A stretch of 64,000 nt of DNA from contig JALUAG010000106.1 in the NCBI GenBank assembly GCA_027045875.1, forward strand, positions 1 to 64,000. Reading direction: 5' to 3'. Position 1 is the stretch's first letter. Every line of letters begins with the position of its first letter. Both the position numbers and the translations under genes were made by a program. Shown here one piece after another: positions 16,649 through 63,180 of the stretch. The notes below the pieces were generated by a model. That model saw nothing but the letters and a program-made list of their open reading frames with translations. It ran no database searches and had not been told where the DNA came from. Source of the DNA: Alphaproteobacteria bacterium. GTDB lineage: Bacteria; Pseudomonadota; Alphaproteobacteria; Geminicoccales; Geminicoccaceae.

Positions 16649-16660
16649 GGCGACCTCCCC

Positions 16661-17777: not shown

Positions 17778-17801
17778 AGCCGGGCCGGAGCCGGCGGCGG
17801 T

Positions 17802-19467: not shown

Positions 19468-19474
19468 CCTCTTC

Positions 19475-19492: not shown

Positions 19493-19495
19493 CGT

Positions 19496-19524: not shown

Positions 19525-19530
19525 GCGAAA

Positions 19531-19850: not shown

Positions 19851-19953
19851 GTTGTGCGGGATCCACGCACCACACGATCGTACGGACCGGACGGGGGACG
19901 GGCTTGCCCGCGCCGGCGGCCGGTGTCTCAATGGCCGCCACGGAGGTGAAGGG

Positions 19954-20319
19954 ATGAGCGAAGTTGTCTACAGGCGCGGCGATGCCGACGAGCGGCCGTG
20001 GGGGCGCTGGGAGGTGCTGGACGTCGGCGAGCGTTTCGTGGTCAAGCGGATCAGCGTCCGTCCCGGCGGCAAGCTCTCGCTCCAGCGCCACAACCACCGG
20101 CAGGAACACTGGGTCATCGTGCGCGGCCGCGCCCGCGTCACCCGCAACGAGGAGATCCTGGATCTGGGCCCCGACGACAGCGTGTTCATTCCGCTGCACG
20201 CCTGGCACCGAATCGAGAACCCCGGCGACGAGCTGATGGAATTCATCGAGGTGCAGACCGGCGACCGCCTCGACGAGAACGACATCGAGCGCCGCGAGGA
20301 CGTCTACGGGCGCGGCTGA
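19954..20319 (+). CDS. Cupin protein, mannose-6-phosphate isomerase type II-like
   Basis: A 121-residue single-domain cupin resembling the C-terminal phosphomannose-isomerase domain of ManC/AlgA proteins: RPWGRWEVLDVGERFVVKRI, then PGGKLSLQRHNHRQEHWVIV (metal-binding His, Gln and Glu residues, about 47-66) and PLHAWHRIENPG for the second cupin motif. GGAGGTGAAGGG precedes the ATG. No mannose-1-phosphate guanylyltransferase domain is attached, so it is a stand-alone isomerase-like cupin; activity on mannose-6-phosphate is an inference from family. Confidence 0.85.
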   Translation: MSEVVYRRGDADERPWGRWEVLDVGERFVVKRISVRPGGKLSLQRHNHRQEHWVIVRGRARVTRNEEILDLGPDDSVFIPLHAWHRIENPGDELMEFIEVQTGDRLDENDIERREDVYGRG

Positions 20320-43909: not shown

Positions 43910-44345
43910 GCAGGCCCTCGCCGCCCGCGTCGCCCGCGGCATGTACGCGCGGGATTTCGCCGCCCGGCGCAACGGTGTCGAGATCCTCGAGGTGGGCCCC
44001 GGCTTCGCCCGGGTGGCGATGCGGGTGCGCCGCGAGATGCTGAACGGCCACGCCCTCTGCCACGGCGGCTACATCTTTCTGCTCGCCGACAGCGCCTTCG
44101 CCTACGCCTGCAACGCCGACAACCACGTCACGGTGGCACTCGCCTGCCACATCTCCTTCGTCGCCCCGGCGCGGGAGGGCGACCGGCTGGTGGCAGTGGC
44201 GCGGGAGGCGGCGAAGGCCGGTCGTACCGGCGTCTATGATGTCACCGTGCTCGACCAGGACGGCACCACCATCGCCATCTTCCGCGGCAACAGCTACCGC
44301 ACCCGGGGCCAGGTGGTGCCATCGGCGGCGCCGCCGGAGGCCTAG
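43902..44345 (+). CDS. paaI: Hydroxyphenylacetyl-CoA thioesterase PaaI
   Basis: PaaI is a hotdog-fold thioesterase that salvages CoA from dead-end ring-hydroxylated phenylacetyl-CoA. The 147-residue protein shows the family motif NGHALCHGGYIFLLADSAFA at about residues 48-67, with the active-site region HGG...LADSAFAYACN. It overlaps paaH by 8 bases. Its stop shares the bases CTAG with the stop of the convergent ATP-grasp gene. Confidence 0.92.
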   Translation: MDRQALAARVARGMYARDFAARRNGVEILEVGPGFARVAMRVRREMLNGHALCHGGYIFLLADSAFAYACNADNHVTVALACHISFVAPAREGDRLVAVAREAAKAGRTGVYDVTVLDQDGTTIAIFRGNSYRTRGQVVPSAAPPEA

Positions 44346-45439
44346 AGGGGCAGATCGCGGGGATCGCGTCCGCGCATCCGCATCAGGAACTTGGCGATGC
44401 GCGGGGCGGGATCGGCGATGTCGGCGGGATGCCGCCAGCGGGCGCCGATGGCCTCGCGGGCGGCCAGCAGACAGGCCGCCGGCCCCTCCTCGGCCAAGAG
44501 CTCCCGGCAGAGCTTGAGATAGACGCCGGGATTGAGCATCCGCCGTCCCACCACATAGCTGGTGGGGCTCGTGACCTCGCCGCAGGCGGCCTCCACCAGG
44601 AGCCGCGGCAGGTGCAGGCCGCAATCGAGGAAGTAGCGGACGTAGCCGGGCAGGCGGGGATTGATCTCGATCACCCTGGGCGTGCCGCAGCGGGCGTCGA
44701 TCTTGAACTCCACCTCCGCCGGTCCCTGCCATCGGAGATGGTCGAAGAAGGGCAGCACGGCCTCGACCAGGGCCGGCTCGTGGCTGCTCTCGACGAGGGC
44801 GGCGAGGCCGCCTTTTGCCGGGTACTGGCGGATCTTGCGCAGGGTGAACCAGGCGACGAGCCGCGAGCGGCGGTCGAACAGCAGGGTGGCGGCGCGCATC
44901 GCCGTCGGCGGACCGGGCACATATTCGCACAGGAGATCGTCCGGGCCGGCGGCGCGCCGGGCGGCGGCGGCATCCGCGAAACGCCGCACCCCGCGCGCCC
45001 CGCCGACATCGAAGCGGGGCTTGACGACCACCGGCCCCGTCGCCTCCGCGGGGGTGAAAAGCCGCGGCGCCGGGATCCCGAGACGCGCACACAGGCGATG
45101 GGTCCGGCACTTGTCGTAGGCCGCCAGCACCGTCTCGTGGTCGGGGAAGGTCAGTGCGAAATGCCGCGCCAGCAGCGATCGCGCTCGGCTGAGCCGGACC
45201 ACATCGGCGGAGCTCATGGCCAGCAGCAGCTCCACGCCCGCCGCCCGCAGCCGTTCGGCGAGGCGCGCCGGCGGAAGATCGTCCGGCAGGCGCAGATGCG
45301 TCCCGCAGTAGCGCGATCGCAGGCCGAGCGCCGGCATCCGCGGATCGCAGCCGATCACCGCGTGACCGCCCCGGCCGAGATCCCGGATCACGGCCAGAGC
45401 CGCGCGATCCAGCGCTCGCGTCACCGCCACCCGGGTCAC
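44342..45439 (-). CDS. ATP-grasp ligase of unknown specificity
   Basis: A 365-residue ATP-grasp protein (carbamoyl-phosphate-synthase L-like). A Rossmann-like N-domain (RAALAVIRDLGRGGHAVIGC) precedes the ATP-grasp fold: VVVKPRFDVGGARGVRRF nucleotide loop (about residues 135-152), LLCEYVPG hinge and the metal-binding EVEFKIDARCGTPRVIEINP with RLPGY. Such enzymes join a carboxylate to an amine or thiol via an acyl-phosphate. It is in tandem with the FemAB-like gene 16 bases upstream. No carrier or substrate gene was recognised nearby. Confidence 0.82.
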   Translation of the reverse strand: MTRVAVTRALDRAALAVIRDLGRGGHAVIGCDPRMPALGLRSRYCGTHLRLPDDLPPARLAERLRAAGVELLLAMSSADVVRLSRARSLLARHFALTFPDHETVLAAYDKCRTHRLCARLGIPAPRLFTPAEATGPVVVKPRFDVGGARGVRRFADAAAARRAAGPDDLLCEYVPGPPTAMRAATLLFDRRSRLVAWFTLRKIRQYPAKGGLAALVESSHEPALVEAVLPFFDHLRWQGPAEVEFKIDARCGTPRVIEINPRLPGYVRYFLDCGLHLPRLLVEAACGEVTSPTSYVVGRRMLNPGVYLKLCRELLAEEGPAACLLAAREAIGARWRHPADIADPAPRIAKFLMRMRGRDPRDLPL

Positions 45440-45455
45440 CTTGCCGCGCTCCGCT

Positions 45456-46607
45456 CTACGAGGGCGTGAGGACGTCTGTGAACTTGTAGCGTCGCGCGAC
45501 CCAGCGGTGGAGCCGGAACACGGGTCGCGCCACGAGGTTTTCCGCCCCTCCGGGCCCGCGGAAGTAGAGCCGGGTGGGGAGGAAGTCGAAGCCGCGGCGG
45601 GCCTTGAGCCGGTGCTGCAGGATGCCGCCGTAGAGACGCCGGAGCCCGAGCTCGGTCGCCCGGCGCACCGGCAGGTAGTAGCCCATGTTGAAATAGAGGA
45701 ACGATCCGCGGGTCTCGGGCAGAAAGCCGCAGAAGGACAGATGGCCGACGCGCCCGTCGTGCACGACGGCCGCGAAGCCCACCAGCTCCCGGCCGGCGAA
45801 GGCCCCGAAGATGATGCAGCGCTCGCCCAGATGCTGCCTGAGCAGCGGCAGCAGGCGCGGACCGTAGGGATAGGGTACGTCGGGATTGAGGCGACGGTGA
45901 TGGGCGAGGGCGATCCCGTGCAGCCGGTCGGCCAGAGGCTCCGGATCGGCGATCTCCCGGATCTCGATGCCGCTGCGGGCGAAGACGCGGATCTCCCTGC
46001 GCACCATGCTGGGAAGGGTCGGCGAGCGGGCCCGCAGCGCCTCCAGATAGCCGTCGAAATCCGACCAGGCGATGTCCATGTAGGCGACGGGATTGTCGAG
46101 GGTGGCGAGGAAGCCGCGGTCGCGGAGGAGGCCCTGGAGCTCGCTGTCGGTGGCCGGCACCCGGCGGAAGACGAGCGGCAGGCCGCGCTCGCGCGCCCGT
46201 TCCAGCAGCCGGTCGAGGAGCTCCGCGCGCCGCGGGCCGAAGAGGGCGGGATCGCAGTCCTTGTGGGGTCCCACCAGCAGGCAGGGCACGAAGGAGACGC
46301 CCAGCCGGGCCAGCGGCCGGCGCAGGCGACCCAGAAGCACGCGGTCGGGAGAATGGAAGCAGTCCTGGCTCGCGACCTCGCGCAGGACGGCGGCGGCGGT
46401 CAGCCGTCCGCCCTCCTCGAGGGCGAGGTAGAGGGGGCACTCGTCGCGGGCGGCCTCGTCGAGGGCGCGCAGCCAGCCGTGGCCCACCATCATGCCGGGC
46501 GACAGCCGCGTCCAGACGTCCTCGTCGAAGGCGGTGACCCGGTCGGTGGACCGGAGGCGGGTTGCCGTGTCGGCCGGTGGCCGCGTCCGCGTCGCGGTCT
46601 CGCTCAT
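45456..46607 (-). CDS. FemAB/GNAT-like acyltransferase (peptidoglycan-recognition family type)
   Basis: A 383-residue protein resembling the Acetyltransf_6/FemAB-like GNAT group. The C-terminal half has typical segments: LPSMVRREIRVFARSGIEIR (about residues 211-230), IALAHHRRLNPDVPYPYGPR, FGAFAGRELVGFAAVVHDGR and SFLYFNMGYYLPVRRATELG. Relatives transfer aminoacyl or acyl groups from carriers such as aminoacyl-tRNA. The ATG at 46605-46607 is chosen from the position of conserved sequence. It is first in a two-gene leftward unit with the ATP-grasp gene and divergent from paaK. Confidence 0.75.
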   Translation of the reverse strand: MSETATRTRPPADTATRLRSTDRVTAFDEDVWTRLSPGMMVGHGWLRALDEAARDECPLYLALEEGGRLTAAAVLREVASQDCFHSPDRVLLGRLRRPLARLGVSFVPCLLVGPHKDCDPALFGPRRAELLDRLLERARERGLPLVFRRVPATDSELQGLLRDRGFLATLDNPVAYMDIAWSDFDGYLEALRARSPTLPSMVRREIRVFARSGIEIREIADPEPLADRLHGIALAHHRRLNPDVPYPYGPRLLPLLRQHLGERCIIFGAFAGRELVGFAAVVHDGRVGHLSFCGFLPETRGSFLYFNMGYYLPVRRATELGLRRLYGGILQHRLKARRGFDFLPTRLYFRGPGGAENLVARPVFRLHRWVARRYKFTDVLTPS

Positions 46608-46728
46608 CTGCCGTTCCCTGCGATCCTGCCGCCGCACGGGGGCGCGCCCGGATGTCCGGTGGCCGCGGCGCGCGCCGCGGCCCGTTACGGATAGGCGCGA
46701 TGCGGCGATGACGCCACCCGCGGATCGC

Positions 46729-46760
46729 GGGCGCCATATCATCGGGCACCATATCATGGT
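46729..46760. promoter_or_regulatory. Tandem repeat and dyad between paaK and FemAB-like gene
   Basis: GGGCGCCATATCAT (46729-46742) is repeated with one change as GGGCACCATATCAT (46744-46757), a 15-base period. The second copy also forms a perfect dyad, ACCAT-ATC-ATGGT (46748-46760). This sits in the 260-base divergent intergenic region and looks like an operator, for paaK, for the leftward pair, or both. Confidence 0.5.
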
Positions 46761-46867
46761 GGGGATCGCCACCGGGCTCCGGCTGGAGGCGTCGGCGACT
46801 TGAAAATTCGCCCGCCGCCCGTGATCTTGGACCCGCTTCAGGAGGGACCGCCGGGAGGGAGGTTGCC

Positions 46868-48181
46868 ATGCGGCATGCGCGTGCGCCCAGGAAGGAGGAA
46901 CTCGATCCGATCGAGATGGCGAGCCGGGACGAGATCGAGGCGCTGCAGCTCGACCGTCTCAAATGGTCGCTGCGGCATGCCTACGACAACGTTCCCTTCT
47001 ACCGCGAGCTGTGGGACGAGAAGGGGGTGCATCCCGAGGACGTGCACGCGCTCGAGGACCTGCGGCGGTTTCCCTTCGTCACCAAGCAGGATCTGCGGCG
47101 CTACTACCCCTTCGGCATGTTCGCCGTGCCGCGCGAGCAGGTGGTGCGCATCCACGCCTCCTCCGGCACCACCGGCAAGCCGACGGTGGTCGGCTACACG
47201 CGCAACGATCTCGAGACTTGGTCGGAGGTGGTGGCCCGCTCCCTGCGCGCGGCCGGCGCCCGGCCCGGCGAGATCATCCACGTGGTGTACGGCTACGGCC
47301 TGTTCACCGGCGGGCTCGGCCTCCACTACGGGGCCGAGCGCATGGGGATGACGGTGGTGCCCATGTCGGGCGGCATGACCGAGCGCCAGGTCCAGCTGAT
47401 CGCCGATTTCCGGCCGCAGGTGATCGCCGTCACCCCCTCCTACATGCTGGCCATCGCCGACGAGTTCGAGCGTCAGGGGCTCGACCCCCGCGAGAGCTCG
47501 CTCGAGGTGGGGGTGTTCGGGGCCGAGCCCTGGACCGAAGCCATGCGCCGCGAGATCGAGGAGCGCTTCGCCATGGACGCGGTCGACATCTACGGGCTGT
47601 CCGAGGTGATCGGCCCGGGGGTGGCGATGGAGTGTATCGAGACCAAGGACGGGCTGCACGTATGGGAGGACCATTTCCTGCCCGAGGTGATCGATCCGGC
47701 CACCGGCGAGGTGCTGCCCGACGGCGAGATGGGCGAGCTCGTCTTCACCTCCCTTTCCAAGGAGGCTTTTCCGGTGATCCGCTACCGCACCCGGGACCTC
47801 ACCCGGCTGCTGCCGGGCACCGCCCGCAGCATGCGGCGGATGGAGAAGATCACCGGCCGCAGCGACGACATGCTGATCATCCGCGGCGTCAATCTGTTCC
47901 CCTCCCAGATCGAGGAGCTCCTCGAGGCGGATCCCCGCCTCACCCTCCACTACGTGCTCGAGGTGCGGCGGGACGGTCCCCTCGATCAGCTCACGGTGCT
48001 GGTCGAGGCGCGGCCGGAGGCGGCGGAGGCGTCCGTACGCGAGGCGGCGGAGGCCGAGCTGCGGCACCATATCAAGAGCCGCATCGGCGTCAGCGCCGCG
48101 GTACGGGTGACCGAGCCCGGAAGCATCGAGCGCTCGATGGGCAAGGCGAAGCGCATCGTCGATCTGCGCAAGAGCGGCTGA
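46868..48181 (+). CDS. paaK: Phenylacetate-CoA ligase PaaK
   Basis: PaaK activates phenylacetate to phenylacetyl-CoA with ATP, the entry step of the aerobic hybrid pathway. The 437-residue adenylate-forming enzyme has LKWSLRHAYDNVPFYRELWD, the P-loop SSGTTGKPTVVGYTRND at about residues 98-114, YGLSEVIGPGVAMECIETKD and the C-terminal DDMLIIRGVNLFPSQIEELL. Length is exactly that of PaaK. GGGAGGGAGGTTGCC precedes the ATG. It ends 12 bases from the convergent folD stop. Confidence 0.95.
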   Translation: MRHARAPRKEELDPIEMASRDEIEALQLDRLKWSLRHAYDNVPFYRELWDEKGVHPEDVHALEDLRRFPFVTKQDLRRYYPFGMFAVPREQVVRIHASSGTTGKPTVVGYTRNDLETWSEVVARSLRAAGARPGEIIHVVYGYGLFTGGLGLHYGAERMGMTVVPMSGGMTERQVQLIADFRPQVIAVTPSYMLAIADEFERQGLDPRESSLEVGVFGAEPWTEAMRREIEERFAMDAVDIYGLSEVIGPGVAMECIETKDGLHVWEDHFLPEVIDPATGEVLPDGEMGELVFTSLSKEAFPVIRYRTRDLTRLLPGTARSMRRMEKITGRSDDMLIIRGVNLFPSQIEELLEADPRLTLHYVLEVRRDGPLDQLTVLVEARPEAAEASVREAAEAELRHHIKSRIGVSAAVRVTEPGSIERSMGKAKRIVDLRKSG

Positions 48182-48193
48182 CGGGCGGGCGCC

Positions 48194-49078
48194 TCAGGGC
48201 TCGAGGCGGCGGCGGGCGGCGAGCAGCGTGTTGTAGAGCAGACAGGCCACCGTCATCGGCCCCACGCCGCCCGGCACCGGGGTGATGGCGGCGGCCCGCT
48301 CCGCCGCTTCGGCGAAGGCCACGTCGCCGACCAGACGGCTCCCGCCGTCGTCCTCGATGCGATTGATGCCCACGTCGATCACCACCGCCCCCTCGCGGAC
48401 CCAGTCGCCGCGCACCATTTCCGGCCGGCCGACGGCGGCCACCAGGATCTCCGCCTCGCGGCAGCGGTCGGCGAGATCGCGGGTGCGCGAATGGGCCAGG
48501 GTGACGGTGGCATCGGCGCCCAGCAGCAGCGCCGCCATCGGCTTGCCGACGATGTTGGAACGCCCCAGCACCAGCGCCCGACGCCCGCGCAGCCCCTCGC
48601 GGCCGAGCACCGATTCGAGCAGCATCATGCAACCGAGCGGCGTGCAGGGCAGCAGCAGGCCGGCCTCGCGCGGCCGCGCGGCGGCCCACATGCGGCCGAC
48701 GTTCACGGGGTGGAAACCGTCCACGTCCTTGGCCGGATCGATCGCCTCCAGCACCACCCGGCCGTCGATGCCGGCGGGCAGGGGGAGCTGCACCAGGATG
48801 CCGTGCACCGAGGGGTCGGCGTTGAGAGCGGCGAGGCGGGCGAGGAGGGCCTCCTGGCCGATGTCGGCCGGCAGCCGCTCGACCTCGCCCGCGATCCCCA
48901 CCTCCGCCGCCATCTTCGCCTTGGTGCGCACGTAGACCTGGCTCGCCGGGTTCTCGCCCACCAGCAGCACCACGAGGCGCGGCACGACGCCGTGCCGCCA
49001 GCGCAGCGCCGCCACCTCCTCGGCCACCCGTGCCCGCAGCGCCGCCGCCCGGGCCCGACCGTCGATGATCTCCGCCAT
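48194..49078 (-). CDS. folD: Methylenetetrahydrofolate dehydrogenase/cyclohydrolase FolD
   Basis: FolD interconverts 5,10-methylene-, methenyl- and 10-formyl-tetrahydrofolate using NADP. The 294-residue protein has [20 protein letters not shown] (with the active-site YxxxK), [25 protein letters not shown], the NADP motif [13 protein letters not shown] and the C-terminal [11 protein letters not shown]. It is last in the leftward set yggT-yggU-folD. Confidence 0.96.
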
Positions 49079-49112
49079 GTCGCCGCTCTCCCTCCGTTTC
49101 TGCGCGCCCTTC

Positions 49113-49460
49113 CTAACGCCGGCGAGCCTGCCCGCCGCGGGCCCCCGCCTCCGCCGTCAGCGCGACCGCGCGTTCCCGCAGGGCGACGGGCGGGCCGCGC
49201 AGCAGCACGCGCTTGCGGCGCGAGGCGACGCCGCTCCGCAGCTCGACCGCCGAAACGGGCACCCCGAGCGCGCGGGCGAGCAGCCGGCGCACCGCGAGAT
49301 TGGCGCGCCCGCCTTCCGCCGGCACCGCCACCCGGACGGCCAGCCAGGCGCCGCCCGCCGCGTCCTCGACGATCCCGGTGATCCGGTCCTCGCCGCCCCG
49401 CGGCGTCACCCGGACCGCGAGCTCGAGACCCGCACCGGTCGTCCGCCAGGGTACCGCCAC
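49113..49460 (-). CDS. yggU: DUF167 (YggU) family protein
   Basis: A 115-residue DUF167/UPF0235 protein with the typical pattern [37 protein letters not shown] and [20 protein letters not shown] followed by the basic [10 protein letters not shown]. Function is undefined. It lies between yggT (13 bases upstream) and folD (34 bases downstream), a common association. Confidence 0.9.
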
Positions 49461-49473
49461 CGCCGGTTCCCGC

Positions 49474-49755
49474 TCAGAAGCACAGCAGCTCGAAGGCGAG
49501 ATCGCGGACGAAGTAGAGGGCGAGGATGAGGACGATCGGCGAGATGTCGAGGCCGCCGAAGCTGGGCAGGAAATTGCGGATCGGGGCCAGCAGCGGCTCG
49601 GTGATGCGGTGGAGGAATTCCCCCACCTGCCAGACGAAGCGGTTGTGGGTGTTGAGGACGTTGAAGGCGACCAGCCAGCTCAGCACGACCGAGGCGATGA
49701 GGAGCCAGATGTAGATCGAGACGACCGTGTCGATCAGTCTGCAGAGCGCGTACAT
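49474..49755 (-). CDS. yggT: YggT family membrane protein
   Basis: A 93-residue protein with two membrane helices (about residues 9-30 and 68-88) separated by the family motif HRITEPLLAPIRNFLPSFGG followed by LDISPIVLILALYFVRD. YggT proteins have been linked to osmotic adaptation and division-site/photosynthetic compartment functions in other organisms; the role here is not inferred. It is first of the yggT-yggU-folD group. Confidence 0.92.
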   Translation of the reverse strand: MYALCRLIDTVVSIYIWLLIASVVLSWLVAFNVLNTHNRFVWQVGEFLHRITEPLLAPIRNFLPSFGGLDISPIVLILALYFVRDLAFELLCF

Positions 49756-49875
49756 ATCGCTTCGCCCCTTCGCCCGGGCCGCCGACGCCCCTCCGGTTAG
49801 CGGATCCGGTTGCGGGCGGCAAGCGTCGCCGGGCGCCGCCGCCTGCGATCGGGCGACCGCAGGCGGCCCGTCGGC

Positions 49876-50094
49876 TCAGGCGGGAAGGCGCGCTTTCTCG
49901 AACGACGCCACCGCGTCGGCGAGGCGGCGCAGGGCGAAGACGAGCGAGGATTCGTCCCGCATGCGGAAGGCGGTGCTCACGAGCAGGGCGGCGCTGATCA
50001 CCGCCTCGCTGCGCTCGTCCCGCGGCTCCGCCGCCCGGGGCGGGATCTCCCCGCTCTTCTGTTCGTAGTCGAGAATCGCTGCCAGAGCCTTCAT
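49876..50094 (-). CDS. Small conserved-looking protein, unknown
   Basis: A 72-residue helical protein beginning MKALAAILDYEQKSGEIPPR with a C-terminal amphipathic segment (SSLVFALRRLADAVASFEKA). The ATG at 50092-50094 follows GGGAAGCGAGA; an upstream ATG would add 11 residues. No family recognised. It lies just downstream of the intrinsic terminator at 50139-50175, so its transcription may depend on read-through from the promoter at 50215-50243. Confidence 0.55.
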   Translation of the reverse strand: MKALAAILDYEQKSGEIPPRAAEPRDERSEAVISAALLVSTAFRMRDESSLVFALRRLADAVASFEKARLPA

Positions 50095-50138
50095 TCTCGC
50101 TTCCCTCGATGCAGTTGGCGCAAACACGCAGGTCCTCC

Positions 50139-50175
50139 AAAAAAGAGCCCCCGCAAGCGGCTGCTCGGCGGGGGC
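50139..50175 (-). terminator. Intrinsic terminator, leftward
   Basis: On the minus strand GCCCCCGC (50175-50168) pairs perfectly with GCGGGGGC (50154-50147), an 8-pair GC stem, followed by TC and six T (50144-50139). It is the most canonical Rho-independent terminator in the window. Confidence 0.85.
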
Positions 50176-50208
50176 GCAGTGAGGGAGGGAGGCACCGTCT
50201 GACTTGAC
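50139..50208 (-). ncRNA. Candidate small RNA with anti-Shine-Dalgarno motif
   Basis: A leftward promoter at 50215-50243 and the terminator at 50139-50175 would define a transcript of about 70 nucleotides. Its unpaired 5' half contains CCTCCCTCCC (minus strand of 50183-50192), complementary to Shine-Dalgarno sequences, as in several alphaproteobacterial trans-acting sRNAs. No ORF fits. The alternative is a terminator-containing leader (attenuator) for the 72-residue gene at 50094. No match to a named sRNA family was recognised. Confidence 0.5.
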
Positions 50209-50553
50209 GCGCCGAACATAGCCTTAACCGAAATCCACGTCAACAAGAAATGCATCGGCTGTACTTAAAAACATCAATGACTTCACCGCAAAGCCTTGTC
50301 GACTCTTGCGGAAAATTTTGCGACAAGTTTATCCATTTTCAACGCACCCAAGACCAGAACCGGAAATTCACGTGTTTTCAAGGAGTTGGCCGGCAAAGTC
50401 ACATCAAGCATCACTTCAAGCGCCGTCCCGGCGCCGATCCCCTCACGGATCGCGCGGATCCCCGGCACCGGTTCATATCAAACTTCGAAAACGAACGCTA
50501 GCACAAAATGTTAGGTGAAAATTCTCAGATCAGACTTGATGGAATCGCGACAT
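50209..50553. other. AT-rich intergenic island
   Basis: This stretch is visibly lower in GC (roughly half) than the ~70% surroundings. It holds only short overlapping ORFs on both strands (for example a 61-codon GTG ORF, 50283-50468 minus, and a 72-codon ORF, 50296-50514 plus), none with recognised similarity or a good ribosome-binding site. It may be a regulatory region, a decayed insert or a small transferred fragment. Confidence 0.5.
50215..50243 (-). promoter_or_regulatory. Leftward sigma70-type promoter
   Basis: On the minus strand TTGACG (50243-50238), a 17-base spacer and TATGTT (50220-50215) form a good promoter, 5/6 and 4/6 to consensus, with predicted start near 50208. It lies in an AT-rich island and points directly into the terminator about 40 bases downstream. 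Confidence 0.6.
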
Positions 50554-50901
50554 TCATGTCGGCGGCGCGCTCAGCATCAGGAACATCGTCAGCGCATCCT
50601 CCGTCTCCGGGTCGAGCTCGAAGGCCAGATGCATGCGTTCCGCACCGGCCCGCAGCACCCGCGCCGCCAGCCCCCCGGGGACGCCGAAGCAGCCGCATTC
50701 GAGCCGCACCCGCCGCCCCTGCCAGTCGGGGCGCCCGGGCAGCACCGCGGCGCCGCCCAGGGAGATGTCGAGGAGGCCCGCCTCCAGGGTCTCCCCCTCC
50801 CGCACCACCCTGACCGGCAGGGTCACCGCATAGCGGCGATACAGCCGGCGGTCCTCGATCGGATCGTCCTGCGCGTCCACGGGCGGATGGGGGCTGCGCA
50901 T
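50554..50901 (-). CDS. PilZ domain protein
   Basis: A 115-residue single-domain PilZ protein: the c-di-GMP-binding RxxxR motif is in RRLYRRYAVTLPVRV (about residues 18-32) and the DxSxxG motif in DISLGGAAVLPG (about 45-56). It would act as a small c-di-GMP effector, complementing the two GGDEF proteins at 28.7-31.7 kb. It stands alone on the minus strand and is followed by the AT-rich island. Confidence 0.88.
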   Translation of the reverse strand: MRSPHPPVDAQDDPIEDRRLYRRYAVTLPVRVVREGETLEAGLLDISLGGAAVLPGRPDWQGRRVRLECGCFGVPGGLAARVLRAGAERMHLAFELDPETEDALTMFLMLSAPPT

Positions 50902-51084
50902 GCGGCTTCGCTCCTCGCTCGGCCGCCGGAGGGCTGTCGCGGAAGCGGGTGGCGGCCGGCCATCCGGTATAGCGGCGCCGGGTTAAGGGCCGGTTAACGA
51001 CCGCTCTGGCGGTGGGGCCTCGTCCTCTGGTATAGAGCCGCCAGTTTCCCGCCCGGAAGGACGACAGCGGCTTTTCGAGGAACG

Positions 51085-51828
51085 ATGGCCGGACACTCCC
51101 AGTTCAAGAACATCATGTACCGCAAGAACCGCCAGGACGCCGCCCGGGCACGGCGGTTCACGCGGCTGGTGCGCGAGATCCAGGTGGCGGCCCGCTCCGG
51201 GCTGCCCGATCCCGCCCACAACCCCCGTCTCAGGAGCGCCATCCAGGCCGCCAAGGCGGCCAACGTGCCCAAGGAGAACATCGAGCGCGCGATCAGGAAG
51301 GGCCAGGGCGGCGAGGGCGAGGCCTACGAGGAGGTGCGCTACGAGGGCTACGGCCCGGGCGGGGTGGCGATCATCGTCGAGGCCCTGACCGACAACCGCA
51401 ACCGCACCGCGGCCGAGATCCGCGCCGCCTTCAGCAAGCACGGCGGCAGCCTCGGCGAGAGCGGCAGCGTCGCCTTCCAGTTCGAACGCGTGGGGATCGT
51501 GCGCTATCCGGCCGAGGCGGCGGACGCCGACAGCATGCTCGAGGCGGCCATCGAGGCCGGCGCCGAGGACTGCCAGAGCGGCGAGGAAGGGCACGAGATC
51601 CGCTGTGCGCCGGAGGAGCTGGCGGCCGTGCGGGACGCCCTCGAGGCGCGCTTCGGCCCGCCCGAGGAGGCGGTCCTCACCTGGCAGCCGCAGGTCACCG
51701 TGCCGGTGGCCGAGGACAAGGCTCAGACCCTCTTCAAACTCCTGGAAGCGCTCGACGAGAGCGACGACGTCCAGCGCGTGGTGGCCAACTTCGAAGTTTC
51801 CGAGGAGGTCCTGGCACGGCTCGCGTGA
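51085..51828 (+). CDS. yebC: YebC/PmpR family protein (TACO1)
   Basis: A 247-residue YebC-type protein: [20 protein letters not shown] at the N-terminus, [19 protein letters not shown] and [20 protein letters not shown] are family hallmarks. YebC proteins have been described as transcriptional regulators and, more recently, as factors helping ribosomes translate difficult (proline-rich) sequences. Its stop overlaps the ruvC GTG (GTGA), the usual yebC-ruvCAB arrangement. Confidence 0.95.
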
Positions 51829-52325
51829 TCCGCGTCCTCGGTCTCGATCCGGGCCTGCGGCGCACTGGCTGGGGCATCGTCGAGGCGGACGGCAACAGTC
51901 TCCGGTACCGGGCCTGCGGCACCGTCGAGGTCGCCGCCGAGGGCGACCTCGCGCTCCGGCTGCAACGGCTCTACGATGCGCTGGCCGCCACCATCCGCGA
52001 GTTCCGCCCCCGCGAGGCGGCGGTGGAGGAGACGGTGGTCAACCGCAACGCCGGCTCCTCGCTGAAGCTCGGCCATGCCCGCGGGGTGGTGCTGCTGGCC
52101 GCCGCCCACGGCGGCCTCGCGGTGCACGAGTACGGCGCCAAGACGGTGAAGCGGGCGGTGACCGGCACCGGCGGCGCCGACAAGCGGCAGGTGGCGAGCA
52201 TGGTGCGCATGCTGCTGCCCGGCTGCGGCAACCCCGGCACCGATGCCGCCGACGCCCTCGCGGTCGCCATCTGCCATCTCCACCACCGGGCCGGCCGGGC
52301 GCTGCTGGCGGCGGTCCCGCCATGA
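51825..52325 (+). CDS. ruvC: Holliday-junction resolvase RuvC
   Basis: RuvC cuts Holliday junctions symmetrically. The 166-residue protein has the N-terminal acidic residue in [14 protein letters not shown], Glu in [11 protein letters not shown], and the C-terminal [13 protein letters not shown] with catalytic acidic residues. GTG start at 51825. Its stop overlaps the ruvA ATG (ATGA), coupling the two. Confidence 0.97.
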
Positions 52326-52924
52326 TCGCGCTCCTGCGCGGCCGGGTCGCCGTGTCCGAGGAGGAGGCGGTGGTGATCGACGTCGGCGGGGTGGGCTACC
52401 GGGTGTTCTGCGACGCCCGCACCCTGGCCGCCCTGCCGCCCGCGGGCGAGGCGGTGGAACTCCTGATCGAGACCCACATGCGCGAGGGGGCGATCCAGCT
52501 CTTCGGCTTCCGCGACCGGGCGGGCCAGCACTGGTTCCGCCTGCTGCAGAACATCCAGGGGGTGGGGGCGCGTCTCGCCCTGGCGCTGCTCTCCGCGCTC
52601 ACCCCCGAGGAGCTCGCCGCCGCCATCGCCGCCCAGGACCGCAGCGCCCTCGCCCGGGCGAACGGCGTCGGCCCGCGCCTCGCCGGCCGCATCATCGCCG
52701 AGCTCGAGGACCGGCTGGGCAGTCTGCCGCCGGCGATGGCCGCCGGTCCCGCCGCCGCCTCCCCCGGCGACGACGCCCTCGGTGACGCGGTGTCGGCGCT
52801 CCTGCATCTGGGCTACGGCCGCAGCGAGGCCCATCGGGCGGCCACCCTGGCGCGCGACCGGCTCGGGCCGGAGGTCGCGGTCGACCGGCTCATCCGCGAG
52901 GCCCTGAAGGAGCTCGCCCCGTGA
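52322..52924 (+). CDS. ruvA: Holliday-junction DNA helicase subunit RuvA
   Basis: RuvA binds the four-way junction and positions RuvB. The 200-residue protein has the N-terminal OB-fold ([20 protein letters not shown]), two helix-hairpin-helix motifs ([13 protein letters not shown] and [16 protein letters not shown]) and the C-terminal RuvB-contacting domain ([20 protein letters not shown]). It sits between ruvC and ruvB with four-base overlaps at both ends. Confidence 0.97.
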
Positions 52925-53955
52925 CCGACCGGCTGACCACCCGCGAGGAACTCGCGGAGGATCTCGACCAGGGGCTGCGCCCCCGCCGCCTCGACGCCTT
53001 CATCGGCCAGGAACGTCAGCGCGCCAATCTGCGGGTGTTCATCGACGCCGCCCGCGGCCGCAGCGAGCCCCTCGACCATGTGCTGTTCGCCGGCCCGCCC
53101 GGCCTCGGCAAGACCACCCTCGCGCAGATCGTCGCCGCCGAGCTCGGGGTCGGGTTCCGCATGACCTCGGGGCCGATCATCGTCCGCGCCGGCGATCTCG
53201 CGGCGCTGCTCACCAACCTCCAGCCGCGCGACGTGCTGTTCATCGACGAGATCCACCGCCTCGCCCCGGCGGTGGAGGAGATCCTCTATCCGGCGATGGA
53301 GGACTTCAAGCTCGACCTCATGATCGGCGAGGGGCCGGCGGCCCGGTCGGTGCGCATCGATCTGCCGCCCTTCACGCTGATCGGCGCCACCACCCGCACC
53401 GGTCTCCTGACGACGCCGCTGCGCGACCGCTTCGGCATCCTCGCCCGCCTCGACTTCTATGCGGTCGAGGAGCTCGAGGCGATCGTCGCCCGTGGCGCCG
53501 CCCTGCTCGGGCTCGAACTGGCGCCCGAGGGGGCGCGGGAGATCGCCCGCCGCGCCCGCGGCACGCCCCGCATCGCCACCCGCCTGCTGCGCCGGGTGCG
53601 CGATTTCGCCACCGTCCGGGGCGACGGGCCGGTGGACGCGGCGCTGGCCGACGAGGCGCTGACCCGGCTCGAGGTGGACCATCTCGGCCTCGACGCCCTC
53701 GACCGCCGCTATCTCGGGGCCATCGCCCACAACTACGGCGGCGGGCCGGTGGGCATCGACACTCTGGCGGCGGCGCTCTCCGAGCAGCGCGACACTCTCG
53801 AGGAAACGGTGGAGCCCTTCCTGCTCCAGCAGGGCCTCCTGCAGCGCACCCCGCGCGGCCGGGTGCTGACCCGCCTCGCCTGGCGGCATCTGGGGCTCGA
53901 GATGCCGGCGCGCCTGCTCGACCAGCCCGAGCTGTTCGACGGGAAGGCGGATTGA
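52921..53955 (+). CDS. ruvB: Holliday-junction DNA helicase ATPase RuvB
   Basis: RuvB is the AAA+ motor of branch migration. The 344-residue protein has [20 protein letters not shown], Walker [10 protein letters not shown] at about residues 58-66, Walker [11 protein letters not shown], sensor 1 [10 protein letters not shown], and the C-terminal winged helix ([17 protein letters not shown]). GTG start at 52921 overlaps the ruvA stop. Its own stop overlaps the ybgC TTG start. Confidence 0.97.
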
Positions 53956-54374
53956 GGGTCGGCGGGAAGCATCGCGCCCGCTTCCGCGTCTATTACGAGG
54001 ACACCGACGCGGGAGGGATCGTCTACCATGCCAACCATCTGCGCTTCGCCGAGCGCACCCGCACCGAGATGCTGCGGGAGTGGGGGTTCGACCATCCCGG
54101 CCTGCGGGACCGCCACGGTGTCCAGTTCACCGTCCGCCGCTGCCGCATCGAGTTCCTCGGCCCGGCCCGGCTCGACGAGATGCTGACGGTGGAGACCGAG
54201 GTCCTGGAGATGCGCGGTGCCCGGCTCGAGCTCCTGCAGCGCATCCGCGGCGAGCGGGGTCCGGTGGCCGAGATCGCCGTCACCCTGGCGCTGGTCGATC
54301 TGCGGATGCGGCCGGTGCGCGTCGACCGCATCCTGCCCACGGGGCCGTCCGCCGGCGGCCGTTCGGAGGGCTGA
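53952..54374 (+). CDS. ybgC: YbgC acyl-CoA thioesterase (Tol-Pal associated)
   Basis: YbgC is a hotdog-fold thioesterase conserved at the head of tol-pal operons. The 140-residue protein has [20 protein letters not shown] with the catalytic Asp and [18 protein letters not shown]. The only suitable start is TTG at 53952, overlapping the ruvB stop (TTGA); the conserved YYEDTDAGG begins by residue 14. A separate promoter lies between it and tolQ, so it may be read with ruvCAB as well. Confidence 0.92.
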
Positions 54375-54383
54375 GGTTCCCGC

Positions 54384-54420
54384 TTGACAGCCTTTCGGAC
54401 GAAACTGATACCTCGGTATC
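54384..54420 (+). promoter_or_regulatory. tolQ promoter with inverted repeat
   Basis: TTGACA (54384-54389) is a perfect -35; 17 bases later GATACC (54407-54412) is a weak -10. The -10 is embedded in the dyad GATACC-TC-GGTATC (54407-54420), suggesting operator control of the tol-pal operon about 100 bases upstream of the tolQ ATG. Confidence 0.55.
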
Positions 54421-54517
54421 CACGATCGACGCGTGACCCGTCCGGAGCCGCGCACTATCTCCGGTGGTGTTGCCGGGACCCCCGGCAGCCTTCTCGCAAC
54501 GCAGGAAACGACGCGAC

Positions 54518-55240
54518 ATGGATAGCGACGTGATCACCGGCGCCGGTCTCGGCGATGCGACGGCGGGCACCAGCCTCCTCGAGCTCGTGCTCGACGCCGA
54601 TCCGGTCGTCAAGCTCGTCATGCTGCTGCTGCTGCTGGCCTCCATCTGGTGCTGGGCGGTGATCATCGACAAGACGGTGCGGCTGGGCCGGCTGCGCCGC
54701 AAGGCCAATCTCTTCGAGCGGCTGTTCTGGTCCGGCGCCTCGCTGGACGAGCTCTACCGGCGGCTCGCCAAGCGCCCCGATCACCCCATGGCCCTCATCT
54801 TCACCAACGCCATGGCGGAATGGAAGGAGGCGCCGCGCAACCTCGATCCCGAGGGCCAGCGCAACCTGATCGAGCGGGTGACGCGGGTAATGGAGCTCAC
54901 CCTGCAGCGCGAGATGGTGGCCCTCGAGCGCAGCCTGCCGTCGCTCGCCACCATCGGCGCCACCGCCCCCTTCGTCGGCCTGTTCGGCACCGTCTGGGGC
55001 ATCATGAACAGCTTCCAGTCCATCGCCCTCACCAAGAACACCACCCTTGCGGTGGTGGCGCCGGGCATCGCCGAGGCCCTGTTCGCCACCGCGATGGGTC
55101 TCCTGGCCGCGATCCCGGCGGTGGTGGCCTACAACAAGCTGTCGGAGATGCTCGATGCCTACGCCGAGCGGCTCGGCAGCTTCAGCGACGAGTTCGGGGT
55201 CGTGCTCGGGCGCGAGCTCGACACGCGCAGGGTCGCCTGA
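54518..55240 (+). CDS. tolQ: Tol-Pal system proton channel subunit TolQ
   Basis: TolQ forms with TolR the proton-driven motor of the Tol-Pal envelope machine used in cell division. The 240-residue protein has three membrane helices: about residues 28-48, 150-170 (TIGATAPFVGLFGTVWGIMN) and 185-210 (GIAEALFATAMGLLAAIPAV). ATG at 54518 follows AGGAAA. First gene of tolQRAB-pal-cpoB. Confidence 0.96.
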   Translation: MDSDVITGAGLGDATAGTSLLELVLDADPVVKLVMLLLLLASIWCWAVIIDKTVRLGRLRRKANLFERLFWSGASLDELYRRLAKRPDHPMALIFTNAMAEWKEAPRNLDPEGQRNLIERVTRVMELTLQREMVALERSLPSLATIGATAPFVGLFGTVWGIMNSFQSIALTKNTTLAVVAPGIAEALFATAMGLLAAIPAVVAYNKLSEMLDAYAERLGSFSDEFGVVLGRELDTRRVA

Positions 55241-55243
55241 GCG

Positions 55244-55753
<510 letters not shown>

Positions 55754-55763
55754 GGCGGAGACC

Positions 55764-56792
55764 GTGCGACGGGCGCTGCTGCTGTCCTTCCTCCTGCATC
55801 TGACGGTGGTCGGCGTCGTCTGGCTGGGCGGGCTGCTGCCGGGACGGCGCCTGCCGGTGGAGGAGGCGGTGACGGTGGAGATCGTGGCCGAGCTGCCGCC
55901 CAGCGAGGAGGCGGAGACGACCCCGCCCGAACCGGAGCCGGTGGCCGCCGCACCGCTGCCCGAACGCAGCGCCGCGAGCCCGCCGCCGGAACCCGAGCCG
56001 CCACCCGCTCCGGAACCGGAACCGGAGCCGGAACCCGAGCCGCCCGTCCCGCCGCCCGCGCCGCCGGAGCCCCCGGCACCGGAGGTGAAGCTGGCCGAGC
56101 AGGTGCCCGAGCCGGCGCCGGCCCCGCCGGCCCCGGTCGAAGCCGCACCGCCGCCCCCGCCGCCGGCGGTGGAGAAGGAGCCCGAACGGGCGGTCGCCCG
56201 CATCGTGCGCCCGCCCCGGCCGAAGCCGCAACCGCCGGGGCCGAAGCGGGAGGTGAAGCTGGCCGCCGCCAAGGCGCCGAAGCCGAGACTGCGGCCGGAG
56301 CGGCCCGAACGGCGTGCCGATGTCACCGAGGCCGAGAAGGACGAGCCCTTCGACACCCTGCTGCGCAGCGTCGAACGGCTCGACAAGCGGGTGCGGGCCG
56401 AGCGCAAGCGGGAGGGACGCGGTCGCAGGGAGGCGGCCGGCCGGCAGCCGGCGAAGCGGCCGGGAGAGAGCGAGAACGCGGTCTCCCTTGCGGCCCTCCA
56501 GACGATGGTCGAGAAACAGATCTACCGCTGCTGGATCGTTCCGGTGGGCGCCAAGGGGGTGGGGAAGATGCAGGTCGTGGTGCGCTTTTCCGTCGATCCC
56601 GACGGCTCGGTGCGGCGGCCGCGGGTGGTGGACGGCGAGCGCTTCGCCCGCGATCCCGTCTTCCGCATCGTCGCCGAGAGCGCGATGCGCGCGGTGCGGC
56701 AATGCTCCCCGCTGCGGCTGCCGCGGGAAAGCTATGCCCAGTGGCGCGACATCGAGATGAACTTCGATCTGGAACGGGCGTTGAACGGATGA
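55764..56792 (+). CDS. tolA: Tol-Pal system protein TolA
   Basis: TolA spans the periplasm and transmits TolQR energy to TolB-Pal. The 342-residue protein has an N-terminal membrane helix (about residues 3-22), a long Pro/Glu-rich segment (about 45-130, with repeated PEP units), a basic Lys/Arg/Pro region, and a C-terminal TonB/TolA-like domain (LAALQTMVEKQIYRCWIVPV, KMQVVVRFSVDPDGSV). GTG start at 55764 follows GGCGGAG. Its stop overlaps the tolB ATG (ATGA). The central domain is rigid Pro-Glu-rich rather than the Ala/Lys-rich helix of E. coli TolA. Confidence 0.9.
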   Translation: MRRALLLSFLLHLTVVGVVWLGGLLPGRRLPVEEAVTVEIVAELPPSEEAETTPPEPEPVAAAPLPERSAASPPPEPEPPPAPEPEPEPEPEPPVPPPAPPEPPAPEVKLAEQVPEPAPAPPAPVEAAPPPPPPAVEKEPERAVARIVRPPRPKPQPPGPKREVKLAAAKAPKPRLRPERPERRADVTEAEKDEPFDTLLRSVERLDKRVRAERKREGRGRREAAGRQPAKRPGESENAVSLAALQTMVEKQIYRCWIVPVGAKGVGKMQVVVRFSVDPDGSVRRPRVVDGERFARDPVFRIVAESAMRAVRQCSPLRLPRESYAQWRDIEMNFDLERALNG

Positions 56793-58117
56793 CGGAACGA
56801 GGTCTCACCCGACGCCGGCTGCTCATGGCCGGTAGCGCCCTCGCCCTGGGCGGGGTGCCCTTCGCCGCGCGCGGTCAGCTCCGCGTCGACATCACCCGCG
56901 GCCAGGTGGAGCCGCTGCCGATCGCCGTCAGCCCCTTCGCCGGCGACGGTGCGGGGGCGGCCGAGCTCGGGCGTCGGACGGCCGAGGTGATCGCCGCCGA
57001 TCTCGACGGTTCCGGCCTGTTCCGCACCATCGACCCGCGCGCCTACATCCAGGGCCCGGAGGAACTGCGCGATCTGCCGCGCTTCGCCGACTGGCGGCAG
57101 ATCAACGCCCAGGCGCTGGTGACGGGGGTGGTGCGCACCGGCGGCGCCGAGGGGCTCACGGTGGAGTTCCGGCTGTGGGACGTCTTCGCCGGCACCCAGA
57201 TGACCGGCTTCCGGTATACCCTCGCGCGGCGGCTGTGGCGGCGGGTGGCGCACAAGATCGCCGATGCGGTCTACGAGCGGATGACCGGCGAGAAGGGCTA
57301 TTTCGACACCCGCATCGTCTACGTCAGCCAGACCGGGCCGGCCACCGACCGCGTCAAGCGCATCGCCATCATGGACCAGGACGGGGCCAACCACCGCTTC
57401 CTCACCCGGGGGCGCGAACTGGTGCTCACCCCCCGCTTCACCCCGGACGCGCGGCGGGTCGCCTATCTCGCCTACCGCGGCCGCACCCCCGGCATCTTCC
57501 TGCGCGATCTGGCGAGCGGTCGCGACCGCCGCATCGGCAGCTTCGCCGGCATGAACTTCAGCCCCCGCTTCTCGCCCGACGGGCGGGTGATGCTGATGAC
57601 CATCGCCCGCGAGGGCAACTCCGACATCTTCGCCTTCGACCTGTCGAGCCGCCGTCTCGTGCGCCTCACCGACCATCCGGCCATCGACACCTCGCCGAGT
57701 TTCTCGCCGGACGGTCGCGAGATCGTCTTCAACTCGGATCGCGGCGGCAGCCCCCAGCTCTACGTCATGGCCCGCGACGGCGGCAACCCGCGGCGCATCA
57801 GCTTCGGTGCCGGCCGCTACGGCAGTCCCGTCTGGTCGCCCCGCGGCGACTTCATCGCCTTCACCAAGATCAAGGGCGGCTACTTCCATATCGGCGTGAT
57901 GCGCCCCGACGGCAGCGACGAGCGGCTGATCACCCGCAGCTTCTTCGACGAGGCGCCGGTCTGGTCGCCCAACGGCCGGATCATCATGTTCACGCGCCAG
58001 GATCCGGCCACCGACCGTACGCGGCTGATGCGGATCGATCTCTCCGGCTACGATCTGAAGGAGATTCCGACCCCCACCGATGCCTCCGACGGTGACTGGT
58101 CGAACTTGATCCCCTGA
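56789..58117 (+). CDS. tolB: Tol-Pal system beta-propeller TolB
   Basis: TolB is the periplasmic protein linking TolA and Pal. The 442-residue protein has an N-terminal domain (IAVSPFAGDGAGAAELGRRT... IAADLDGSGLFRTIDPRAYI) and a six-bladed WD-type propeller with repeats such as FSPDGREIVFNSDRGGSPQL. The signal peptide reads LTRRRLLMAGSALALGG, with a twin-arginine-like motif rather than a plain Sec signal. Start ATG overlaps the tolA stop. Confidence 0.95.
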   Translation: MTERGLTRRRLLMAGSALALGGVPFAARGQLRVDITRGQVEPLPIAVSPFAGDGAGAAELGRRTAEVIAADLDGSGLFRTIDPRAYIQGPEELRDLPRFADWRQINAQALVTGVVRTGGAEGLTVEFRLWDVFAGTQMTGFRYTLARRLWRRVAHKIADAVYERMTGEKGYFDTRIVYVSQTGPATDRVKRIAIMDQDGANHRFLTRGRELVLTPRFTPDARRVAYLAYRGRTPGIFLRDLASGRDRRIGSFAGMNFSPRFSPDGRVMLMTIAREGNSDIFAFDLSSRRLVRLTDHPAIDTSPSFSPDGREIVFNSDRGGSPQLYVMARDGGNPRRISFGAGRYGSPVWSPRGDFIAFTKIKGGYFHIGVMRPDGSDERLITRSFFDEAPVWSPNGRIIMFTRQDPATDRTRLMRIDLSGYDLKEIPTPTDASDGDWSNLIP

Positions 58118-58204
58118 CCCCGGATCCTGTATGCGATGCCCGACGGACCCGCATCGGCACCTTCCCCGCCCCACTCCTCGTCACCGCAACCCGAGAGGCC
58201 TCCC

Positions 58205-58753
58205 ATGCTGCGTCGCATCCTGCCCTTCGTCCTCCTCGCCTTCGTCCTCGCCGCCTGCAGCGCCACTCCCGACCGGGCGAGCAGTGGCGCCGCGGGAGGC
58301 ACCGCCGCCGAGGCCGCCGACGGCATCGGCGCCGAAGGTCTGGCCGACGGCGACATCGCCCAGAGCGAGCTCGAGGGGGCGCCGATGCCCGGCAGCCAGG
58401 AGGATCTCGAGATCAACGTCGGCGACCGGGTGTTCTTCGCCTTCGACAGCGCCGCCCTCGACGAGGCCGCCCAGGAGACCCTCGACCGCCAGGCGGCCTG
58501 GCTCATGCAGTTCCCCGATCTCACCGTCACCGTCGAGGGCCATGCCGACGAGCGGGGCACCGCCGAGTACAATCTGGCGCTCGGCGAGCGCCGCGCCGCC
58601 GCGGTCAAGAACTATCTGGTGGCCAAGGGCATCGATCCCGACCGCATCCTCACCATTTCCTACGGCGAGGAGCGGCCCGTCGATCCGGCCCACAACGAGG
58701 CGGCCTGGGCGCTCAACCGCCGGGCCGTGACGGTGGTCAACGTCGTCAACTGA
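58205..58753 (+). CDS. pal: Peptidoglycan-associated lipoprotein Pal
   Basis: Pal anchors the outer membrane to peptidoglycan. The 182-residue lipoprotein has lipobox LAAC (Cys at about residue 18), a Gly/Ala linker and an OmpA-like domain: [20 protein letters not shown], then [20 protein letters not shown] with the diaminopimelate-binding Asp and Arg, and [12 protein letters not shown] at the end. An upstream in-frame ATG at 58136 is not used because the signal peptide starts at 58205. Confidence 0.95.
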
Positions 58754-58775
58754 GGCCGTCACGAGGAGCCTACCG

Positions 58776-59705
58776 ATGCGTCTCGTTCCGCTGGCGGCCG
58801 GACTCCTGCTGACGGTCGCCGCGCCCGTTTCGCCGGCGGCGCCGGCGGCGATGCCGGATCCGGCGTCGCTGCAGCGGGAGATCGACGGGGCGAGGGATCT
58901 GCTGCGCTTCGCCCAGGCGACCCCCGGCGGCAGCGACCGTCTTGCCGGCTTCGAGGCGCGGCTGCAGCGGCTGGAGGAGGAGCTGCGGCGCCTCACCGGC
59001 AGGCTCGAGGAGCTCGAATACCGCCAGCGCCGGCTCGAGCGGGCGTTGACCGCCGCCCCCTCGACGCCACCCACCGCCGGGGCGGGCGAGGCTGAGGGGC
59101 GAGCAGGCGTTGCCGGCGATGCGTCCCCCGCCCCGCGGGCGGTCGCGGAACCGCTCGCCGCACCCGGTCGCGGCGAGGGGCCGGCGGCCCCGCTTCCCGA
59201 GCCCGATGCGGCGGCCAGGAGGGGCTACGTGCTGGGTACCCTGCCGGCGGACGCCTTGCGCGAGCCGCCCGCCTCTCCGGCCGAAGGCGCGGCGGCCGCG
59301 ACCGCTCCCGCCGGCGCCTCGCCCGAGGAACGCTACGAGGCGGCGCTGGCCCTCCTCGAGAGCGGCGATTTCGACGCCGCCGAGAAGGCGTTTTCACGCT
59401 TTCTCGAGGATTTCCCCGACCACCCGAAGGCCGCGAGCGCCGCCTTCTGGCTGGGCGAGACCTTCTTCTTCCGCCAGGACTACGCCACCGCCGCCTCGGT
59501 CTACGCCCGCAACTACCGCACCTACGGCCCGGAGGCGCCGCGTGCCCCCGACACGCTCCTCAAGCTGGGCATGGCGCTGGCCGCCATCGGCGATCGCGAA
59601 CGCGCCTGCCAGACCTTCGCCGAGCTGGAGCGACGCTATCCGAGGGCACCGGCACCCGTCCGCCAGGCCCTCGAACGTGAGCGGACGGCGGTCGGCTGCA
59701 GCTGA
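58776..59705 (+). CDS. cpoB: Cell-division coordinator CpoB (YbgF)
   Basis: CpoB coordinates peptidoglycan synthesis by PBP1B with Tol-Pal constriction. The 309-residue periplasmic protein has a signal peptide (cleavage near residue 21), a coiled coil at about residues 55-92 (GFEARLQRLEEELRRLTGRL), an Ala/Pro-rich linker and a TPR domain (residues about 185-300; YEAALALLESGDFDAAEKAF, FWLGETFFFRQDYATAASVY). It follows pal by 22 bases. An LpoA-type activator is encoded elsewhere in the window. Confidence 0.93.
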   Translation: MRLVPLAAGLLLTVAAPVSPAAPAAMPDPASLQREIDGARDLLRFAQATPGGSDRLAGFEARLQRLEEELRRLTGRLEELEYRQRRLERALTAAPSTPPTAGAGEAEGRAGVAGDASPAPRAVAEPLAAPGRGEGPAAPLPEPDAAARRGYVLGTLPADALREPPASPAEGAAAATAPAGASPEERYEAALALLESGDFDAAEKAFSRFLEDFPDHPKAASAAFWLGETFFFRQDYATAASVYARNYRTYGPEAPRAPDTLLKLGMALAAIGDRERACQTFAELERRYPRAPAPVRQALERERTAVGCS

Positions 59706-61014: not shown

Positions 61015-61020
61015 CATAAC

Positions 61021-61026
61021 TATTAT
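61021..61026 (+). promoter_or_regulatory. Likely -10 element of ftsH promoter
   Basis: TATTAT (5/6 to the sigma70 -10) stands in a locally AT-rich patch between tilS and ftsH, about 80 bases before the ftsH start. A matching -35 is weak (TTTCAA at 60998-61003, 17-base spacing), and no clear sigma32 promoter was found, although ftsH is heat-regulated in many bacteria. Confidence 0.4.
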
Positions 61027-61108
61027 AGGGTCTCGACGGTCGGATCGCACCGCCGCCCACGGGTGATGGCAGCGACCGGGCCGACGATCAGTAGAAGAGG
61101 TTTCTCCG

Positions 61109-63055: not shown

Positions 63056-63060
63056 CGGGC

Positions 63061-63111
63061 GCCGTCCGCGCGCGGGAGCGGGTCCCGAACGGGGCGCCGG
63101 CCGCGGACGGC
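63061..63111 (+). terminator. Long inverted repeat after ftsH
   Basis: GCCGTCCGCG (63061-63070) and CGCGGACGGC (63102-63111) are perfect 10-base arms around a 31-base GC-rich loop, 6 bases after the ftsH stop. No T-tract follows. It could be a Rho-independent-like 3' stem or an RNA stabiliser. Confidence 0.35.
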
Positions 63112-63180
63112 GTGTCCACGGGGCCGCGGCTTCCTTCGCCGCCGCACGCGTGATATGCGCGCCGCCGGGGGGAGGGGCGC

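Follow-up and report, generated by a model that had tools for sequence, protein, structure and literature searches.

A conserved, probably regulatory RNA that recurs in one alphaproteobacterial family, usually ahead of a gene for a small protein

Among the described systems closest to the locus analysed here, the CcsR RNAs of Rhodobacter sphaeroides carry a CCUCCUCCC-type motif. CcsR1-4 and the 71-aa protein CcaF1 (CIN1 locus) are encoded in one transcription unit, in which RNase E releases the sRNAs from a transcript that also carries ccaF1, the terminator being at the 3' end of the operon (PMC10253847). In Sinorhizobium meliloti, AbcR1 and AbcR2 (alpha-r15) and NfeR1, of 121, 114 and 115 nt, respectively, block the translation of solute-binding-protein mRNAs by means of two or three anti-Shine-Dalgarno motifs, with livK among the AbcR targets; the AbcR RNAs (114-121 nt) have two such motifs, CUCCUCCC in the loop of a 5' hairpin and UUCCCCUC between stem-loops (PMC8844928). 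The C-rich duf1127-1 leader of the same species attenuates a small-protein gene and, as reported, has a translated uORF and no intrinsic terminator, termination being probably Rho-dependent (PMC12218461). Expression of the Betaproteobacteria toxic sRNA (RF02278) has been detected by Northern blot, its function being unknown (PMC4603805).

The RNA predicted here would work most like the anti-Shine-Dalgarno sRNAs, yet it falls into no Rfam family: searches against Rfam 15 with the whole window (the 64,000-nucleotide stretch of DNA that was analysed) and with the loci of 12 relatives returned no family above its curated cut-off. The top sub-threshold match was RF02278, which the window RNA resembles in being short and C-rich with a GC-rich terminator at its end, but this match scores 17 bits against a cut-off of 50 bits, the first hairpin of RF02278 is unmatched in the window RNA and the two come from different bacterial classes. 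Compared with AbcR and NfeR1 as they have been described, the window RNA is ~71 nt long, has a single stretch, differs in sequence and lies upstream of a small gene, which places it outside the AbcR group. As in the published CcsR/CcaF1 arrangement, the locus joins an RNA to a small protein; unlike that arrangement, as far as its description goes, the locus opens with the RNA, which ends at a terminator of its own, and its protein does not match DUF1127, setting the locus apart from CIN1. The window leader likewise differs from the duf1127-1 leader, in the terms in which the latter has been reported, in that it ends in an intrinsic terminator and lacks a conserved uORF.

On the minus strand, a promoter is followed by a small 5' hairpin, the open stretch CCTCCCTCCC and a GC-rich terminator with six T (Table 1). 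The original prediction had placed a leftward promoter here, a terminator about 40 bases after it and a transcript of about 70 nt; the promoter was confirmed on this strand, with its -10 element ending ~40 bases ahead of the terminator, and the coordinates and description of the terminator and transcript proved correct. The site is thus predicted to yield a discrete RNA of ~70 nt that starts from its own promoter and stops at an intrinsic terminator, the 5' end of the unit being estimated from the promoter and the edge of conservation. Two promoter-like sites, including that of the RNA, were found in positions 44001-64000, compared with 0.6 expected from shuffled sequences. Among relatives, TTG at the -35 distance is present 45-46 nt ahead of an ACGG anchor in each of the 21 loci whose upstream sequence was long enough; the -10 element drifts between relatives, and in 10 of 23 upstream regions the best promoter score is above that of at least 95% of shuffles. 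The other promoter-like site (TTGAAA-16-CAAAAT, 50315-50342) lies on the same strand, ~100 nt upstream of the RNA promoter.

Table 1 Features of the RNA unit and the adjoining small gene in the window.
Feature	Position	Strand	Details
Promoter, sigma-70-like	50215..50243	(-)	-35 TTGACG (50243-50238), 17-nt spacer, -10 TATGTT (50220-50215)
Conserved RNA unit, ~71 nt (predicted)	50139..50209	(-)	Covariance model R1 match of 86.7 bits; alignment A1; edge of BLAST similarity
5' hairpin	50196..50209	(-)	CGUC-AAGUCA-GACG; folding and alignment A1
Anti-Shine-Dalgarno-like stretch, single-stranded	50183..50192	(-)	CCTCCCTCCC; predicted unpaired
Intrinsic terminator	50139..50175	(-)	Stem GCCCCCGC (50175-50168) / GCGGGGGC (50154-50147), then TC and six T (50144-50139)
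Small gene, 72 aa	49876..50094	(-)	ATG at 50094; helical hairpin, no named family

A DNA search (BLAST) of 40 genomes, including that of the window, detected the leader in members of the family; outside the window's genus, similarity was confined to approximately query positions 44-138, and mostly to 52-126, which correspond to the transcript. In an alignment of 18 leaders (A1), 19 of the first 26 columns are invariant and a further two are at least 90% identical, with CCTCCC included, unlike the terminator loop, spacer and flanks, which vary across leaders. Of 31 Geminicoccaceae-like genomes of the order, 22 yielded the unit in the covariance search for relatives that had been proposed as a check: the model (R1) reached E 0.01 in 23, of which 22 were accepted, and since R1 scored at most 150 candidates per genome, a missing match is no proof of absence. 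The match dropped was that of G009 (28 bits, E 0.007), in which the conserved motif is lacking. A wider scan for an 18-nt core with up to two mismatches, run on 385 genomes sampled from the class, matched 14 genomes, four of them exactly (all family members) and ten with two mismatches, while a reversed control pattern matched 16; diverged relatives would escape such a scan, given its two-mismatch limit on an 18-nt core.

Relatives carry the 5' hairpin in the variants CCGUC-AGUCA-GACGG and CCGUC-CAGUAU-GACGG, and the leader of G044, identified later, alters part of the loop. None of the pairs of this hairpin is changed on both sides in A1 and covariation support is weak, although this count understates the helix, because A1 sets the 5' stem of three leaders (L013, L015 and L024) off register. 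The terminator stem is kept in 94.1% of alignment cells, with two pairs changed on both sides and with differing loops. A simple terminator scan of positions 1-20000 and 24001-64000 does not list this terminator, presumably because its loop exceeds the 3-8 nt that the scan allows. Folding of a 73-nt RNA gave -28.6 kcal/mol (z -1.85), a value equalled or bettered by 8 of 200 shuffles. The fold by itself is only mildly unusual, and the unit stands above chance because it is conserved and not because of its fold alone.

A short unit with an open C-rich stretch had been foreseen, and both sequence analysis and conservation across relatives bear this out. The open stretch GUGCCUCCCUCCCUCACU, which resembles the anti-Shine-Dalgarno end of 16S rRNA, sits between the 5' hairpin and the terminator. 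For CCUCCCUCC, the mean unpaired probability is 0.95 in the window's RNA; 20 of 22 leaders have values of at least 0.75, the exceptions being those of G044 (0.40) and G020 (0.67). By its sequence, the RNA has the attributes of an anti-Shine-Dalgarno sRNA, namely a short unit that has its own promoter and terminator and exposes a CCUCC-type stretch.

The small gene lies downstream of the RNA in 21 of the 22 genomes, with 25-52 nt between the U-run and the chosen start codon (in the window, an in-frame GTG at 50127 would extend the protein to 83 aa). A separate promoter would not fit into this distance, and the small gene therefore probably depends on read-through of the terminator. The arrangement is that of an attenuator, with a terminator between a promoter and a gene that, judging from the spacing, has no promoter of its own. 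A protein profile (A2) matches in 26 of the 31 genomes; 16 aligned members are 63-86 aa long and share the motif VVSAAxLVATAFRLRDExxLVxALRRL. Named database records with the protein are titled Geminicoccaceae or Geminicoccus in 10 of 19 cases, the others bearing broader names. Pfam and NCBIfam gave no match for the window's protein at E up to 5, and the 16 members at E up to 0.1 gave one weak Pfam match each to four families (best E 0.0045), none of them DUF1127 and none named as RNA-binding. An AlphaFold2 model (mean pLDDT 83) contains two confident helices; a structural search with this model returned nothing at E 0.001, and a sequence search of the PDB returned one designed protein (E 0.16) and no convincing relative.

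RNA and gene are separable, as indicated by one genome with the RNA only and five with the gene only. G005 retains the promoter, RNA and terminator beside yebC, while no match to the small-protein profile was found at E 0.01 in this genome, and the DNA beside the RNA, when searched with a profile, gave a non-significant 14-residue resemblance and no credible gene remnant; this sole RNA-without-gene genome has an estimated contamination of 7%. Its RNA without the gene favours a function of the RNA in its own right. The gene without a credible RNA is present in G009, G015, G019, G040 and G011, for which the upstream DNA was read in addition to the R1 search, with G011 having a possible degenerate leader containing CCTGCCTCCC. 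Among named species, Geminicoccus flavidas and G. harenae have the gene and lack the RNA motif. Neither RNA nor gene was found at the thresholds used in G010, G012, G022 and G041, two of which are <75% complete. Genomes with only the RNA or only the gene provide natural tests of the role of each part.

Candidate trans targets were sought among gene starts carrying GGAGGCACC, the complement of GGUGCCUCC, with GGAGGMCMC as the control pattern and a gene filter based on our own criteria (at least 100 aa and GC by codon position). In the window's genome, solute-binding proteins account for four of seven filtered GGAGGCACC starts compared with none of six control starts (one-sided p 0.049). The livK-like start of this genome holds GGAGGGAGGCACC, with 13 nt fully complementary to the RNA, and the livK-like starts of its congeners offer, as counted by eye, 10 pairs, one of them G-U (G001), and 11 pairs (G002). 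Duplex energies for target pairings were set aside, as they involved implausible long gapped pairings. Across seven genomes, a set picked after solute-binding matches had been seen, such proteins account for 12 of 29 starts (identified by Pfam) compared with 7 of 44 control starts (one-sided p 0.016, or 0.033 with orthologues collapsed), the control figure combining tallies by eye and by Pfam among the first 25 of 64 families and standing for 7, at most 8, proteins, with 91 of 94 control sites recovered.

Beyond this set, solute-binding proteins were recognised by eye at 1 of 21 starts in the other RNA-bearing genomes examined (49 of 50 sites recovered; G013, G021 and G046 left out, G004 and G045 covered in part) and at 3 of 23 starts in seven genomes without a credible RNA (sites of G010 left out; G022 had none). 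One more solute-binding start, L296 of G005, was excluded by the GC filter. Given these counts and the post hoc choice of the seven genomes, family-wide targeting of solute-binding proteins was rejected. LivK was also abandoned as a family-wide test, with matches at E 1e-40 in 3 of the 31 genomes, all from the window's genus. DppA matches occur in 12 of the 31 genomes, nine of them outside the genus, and GGAGGCACC is present in none of the eight start regions displayed for these nine dppA-like orthologues. A conserved targeting of rpoH was discarded, since its GGAGGCACC start, found in five RNA-bearing genomes, also occurs in the RNA-less G019. The rpoH-like GGAGGCACC starts are L169, L172, L174, L175, L177 and L243. 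The solute-binding targets are thus suggestive as a lead for the window's genus, and we do not claim them as a family-level result. An hfq gene is present in the genome.

The RNA is probably regulatory, and we favour, at a probability of roughly one half, a trans-acting anti-Shine-Dalgarno sRNA whose read-through transcripts would also feed the small gene. An RNA of ~70 nt would be transcribed from its own promoter and end at the intrinsic terminator; its exposed CCUCCCUCC, with GGUG on the 5' side, would pair with GGAGG-containing ribosome-binding sites and lower the translation of these mRNAs, with Hfq probably involved, and transcripts reading through the terminator would allow expression of the small helical protein. 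The near-invariant open stretch, the RNA-only genome and the genus-level targets argue for trans action. The sRNA role put forward in the original prediction is supported in part: the unit and its open C-rich stretch are conserved, as such an sRNA would require, whereas its trans targets are suggestive in the window's genus only. The alternative named there, in which the RNA is an attenuated leader for the 72-residue gene, has a basis of similar strength: the gene follows closely in nearly all RNA-bearing genomes, but G005 has the RNA without it. In its strict form, as a cis-acting attenuator only, the conserved 5' part would sense a protein, a ligand or the state of translation and set read-through, leaving the RNA as a by-product. 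We regard this as a serious possibility that falls short of an even chance, in view of the constant gene downstream, too near for a separate promoter, the potential of GCCUCC in the conserved part to pair, by sequence, with GGGGGC in the 3' arm of the terminator, and the precedent in S. meliloti, where attenuation of a small-protein gene by a C-rich leader follows translation state (PMC12218461). It fits less well with the separate occurrence of RNA and gene or with the C-rich stretch being unpaired in most leaders. A read-through switch in which this stretch pairs with the 25 nt of G-rich sequence past the U-run was rejected, as at least 95% of shuffles were beaten in only 3 of 22 leaders, and no general alternative antiterminator fold was predicted in most of the 22. 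Trans action and cis attenuation are compatible, and both can operate at once.

A protein-binding decoy, in which the RNA would titrate an RNA-binding protein (perhaps the small protein) instead of pairing with mRNAs, would account for the conservation of hairpin loop and C-rich stretch and recalls the RNA-binding DUF1127 protein reported to be co-transcribed with the CcsR sRNAs in Rhodobacter (PMC10253847), but we consider it unlikely, as the window's small protein has no Pfam match and the weakly matched families among the 16 members are not RNA-binding by name. Attenuation through a leader peptide begins from the observation that each of the 24 leaders translated has GTG CCT CCC, and 23 of them VPPS, so that the GTG at 50195 could open a short, proline-rich ORF (VPPSL...), with the terminator under the control of its translation. 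However, no Shine-Dalgarno sequence was seen ahead of this GTG, and past VPPS the frame, length and stop vary by genus, from 14 codons to no stop within 300 nt; this reading was rejected, the frame not being maintained, and we hold it to be very improbable. Even less credit is due to a chance co-occurrence of promoter-like and terminator-like sequences without a functional unit: the modest fold z-score and the 13 of 23 upstream regions with promoter scores within the shuffle range are what it would lead one to expect, but it is at odds with the conservation of the whole arrangement in the 22 genomes.

More speculatively, and with less than even odds in our estimation (we would rate it as doubtful), the favoured anti-Shine-Dalgarno sRNA could be one product of a dual-output locus, with terminated sRNAs restraining nutrient-uptake mRNAs and the read-through small helical protein tuning the same circuit. 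If true, this would mirror the CcaF1-CcsR arrangement of Rhodobacter, with the RNA first and the terminator as the switch. The locus defines an RNA family with no counterpart in Rfam 15, together with a companion small-protein family for which the window's member has no Pfam or NCBIfam name; a literature search for Geminicoccaceae and small RNA, in that narrow wording, found no paper. Should the RNA act in trans, small-protein-linked C-rich anti-Shine-Dalgarno sRNAs would extend to another alphaproteobacterial lineage.

Regarding the genomic surroundings, 14 of the 19 RNA-bearing loci L038-L056 have yebC upstream in divergent orientation. An ORF that appears PilZ-type by eye (50554-50901 in the window) precedes the RNA in the window's genus and also in HRbin40. 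G021 contains two slightly different versions of the RNA (L020 and L032) at contig ends, representing either a strain mixture or a second copy.
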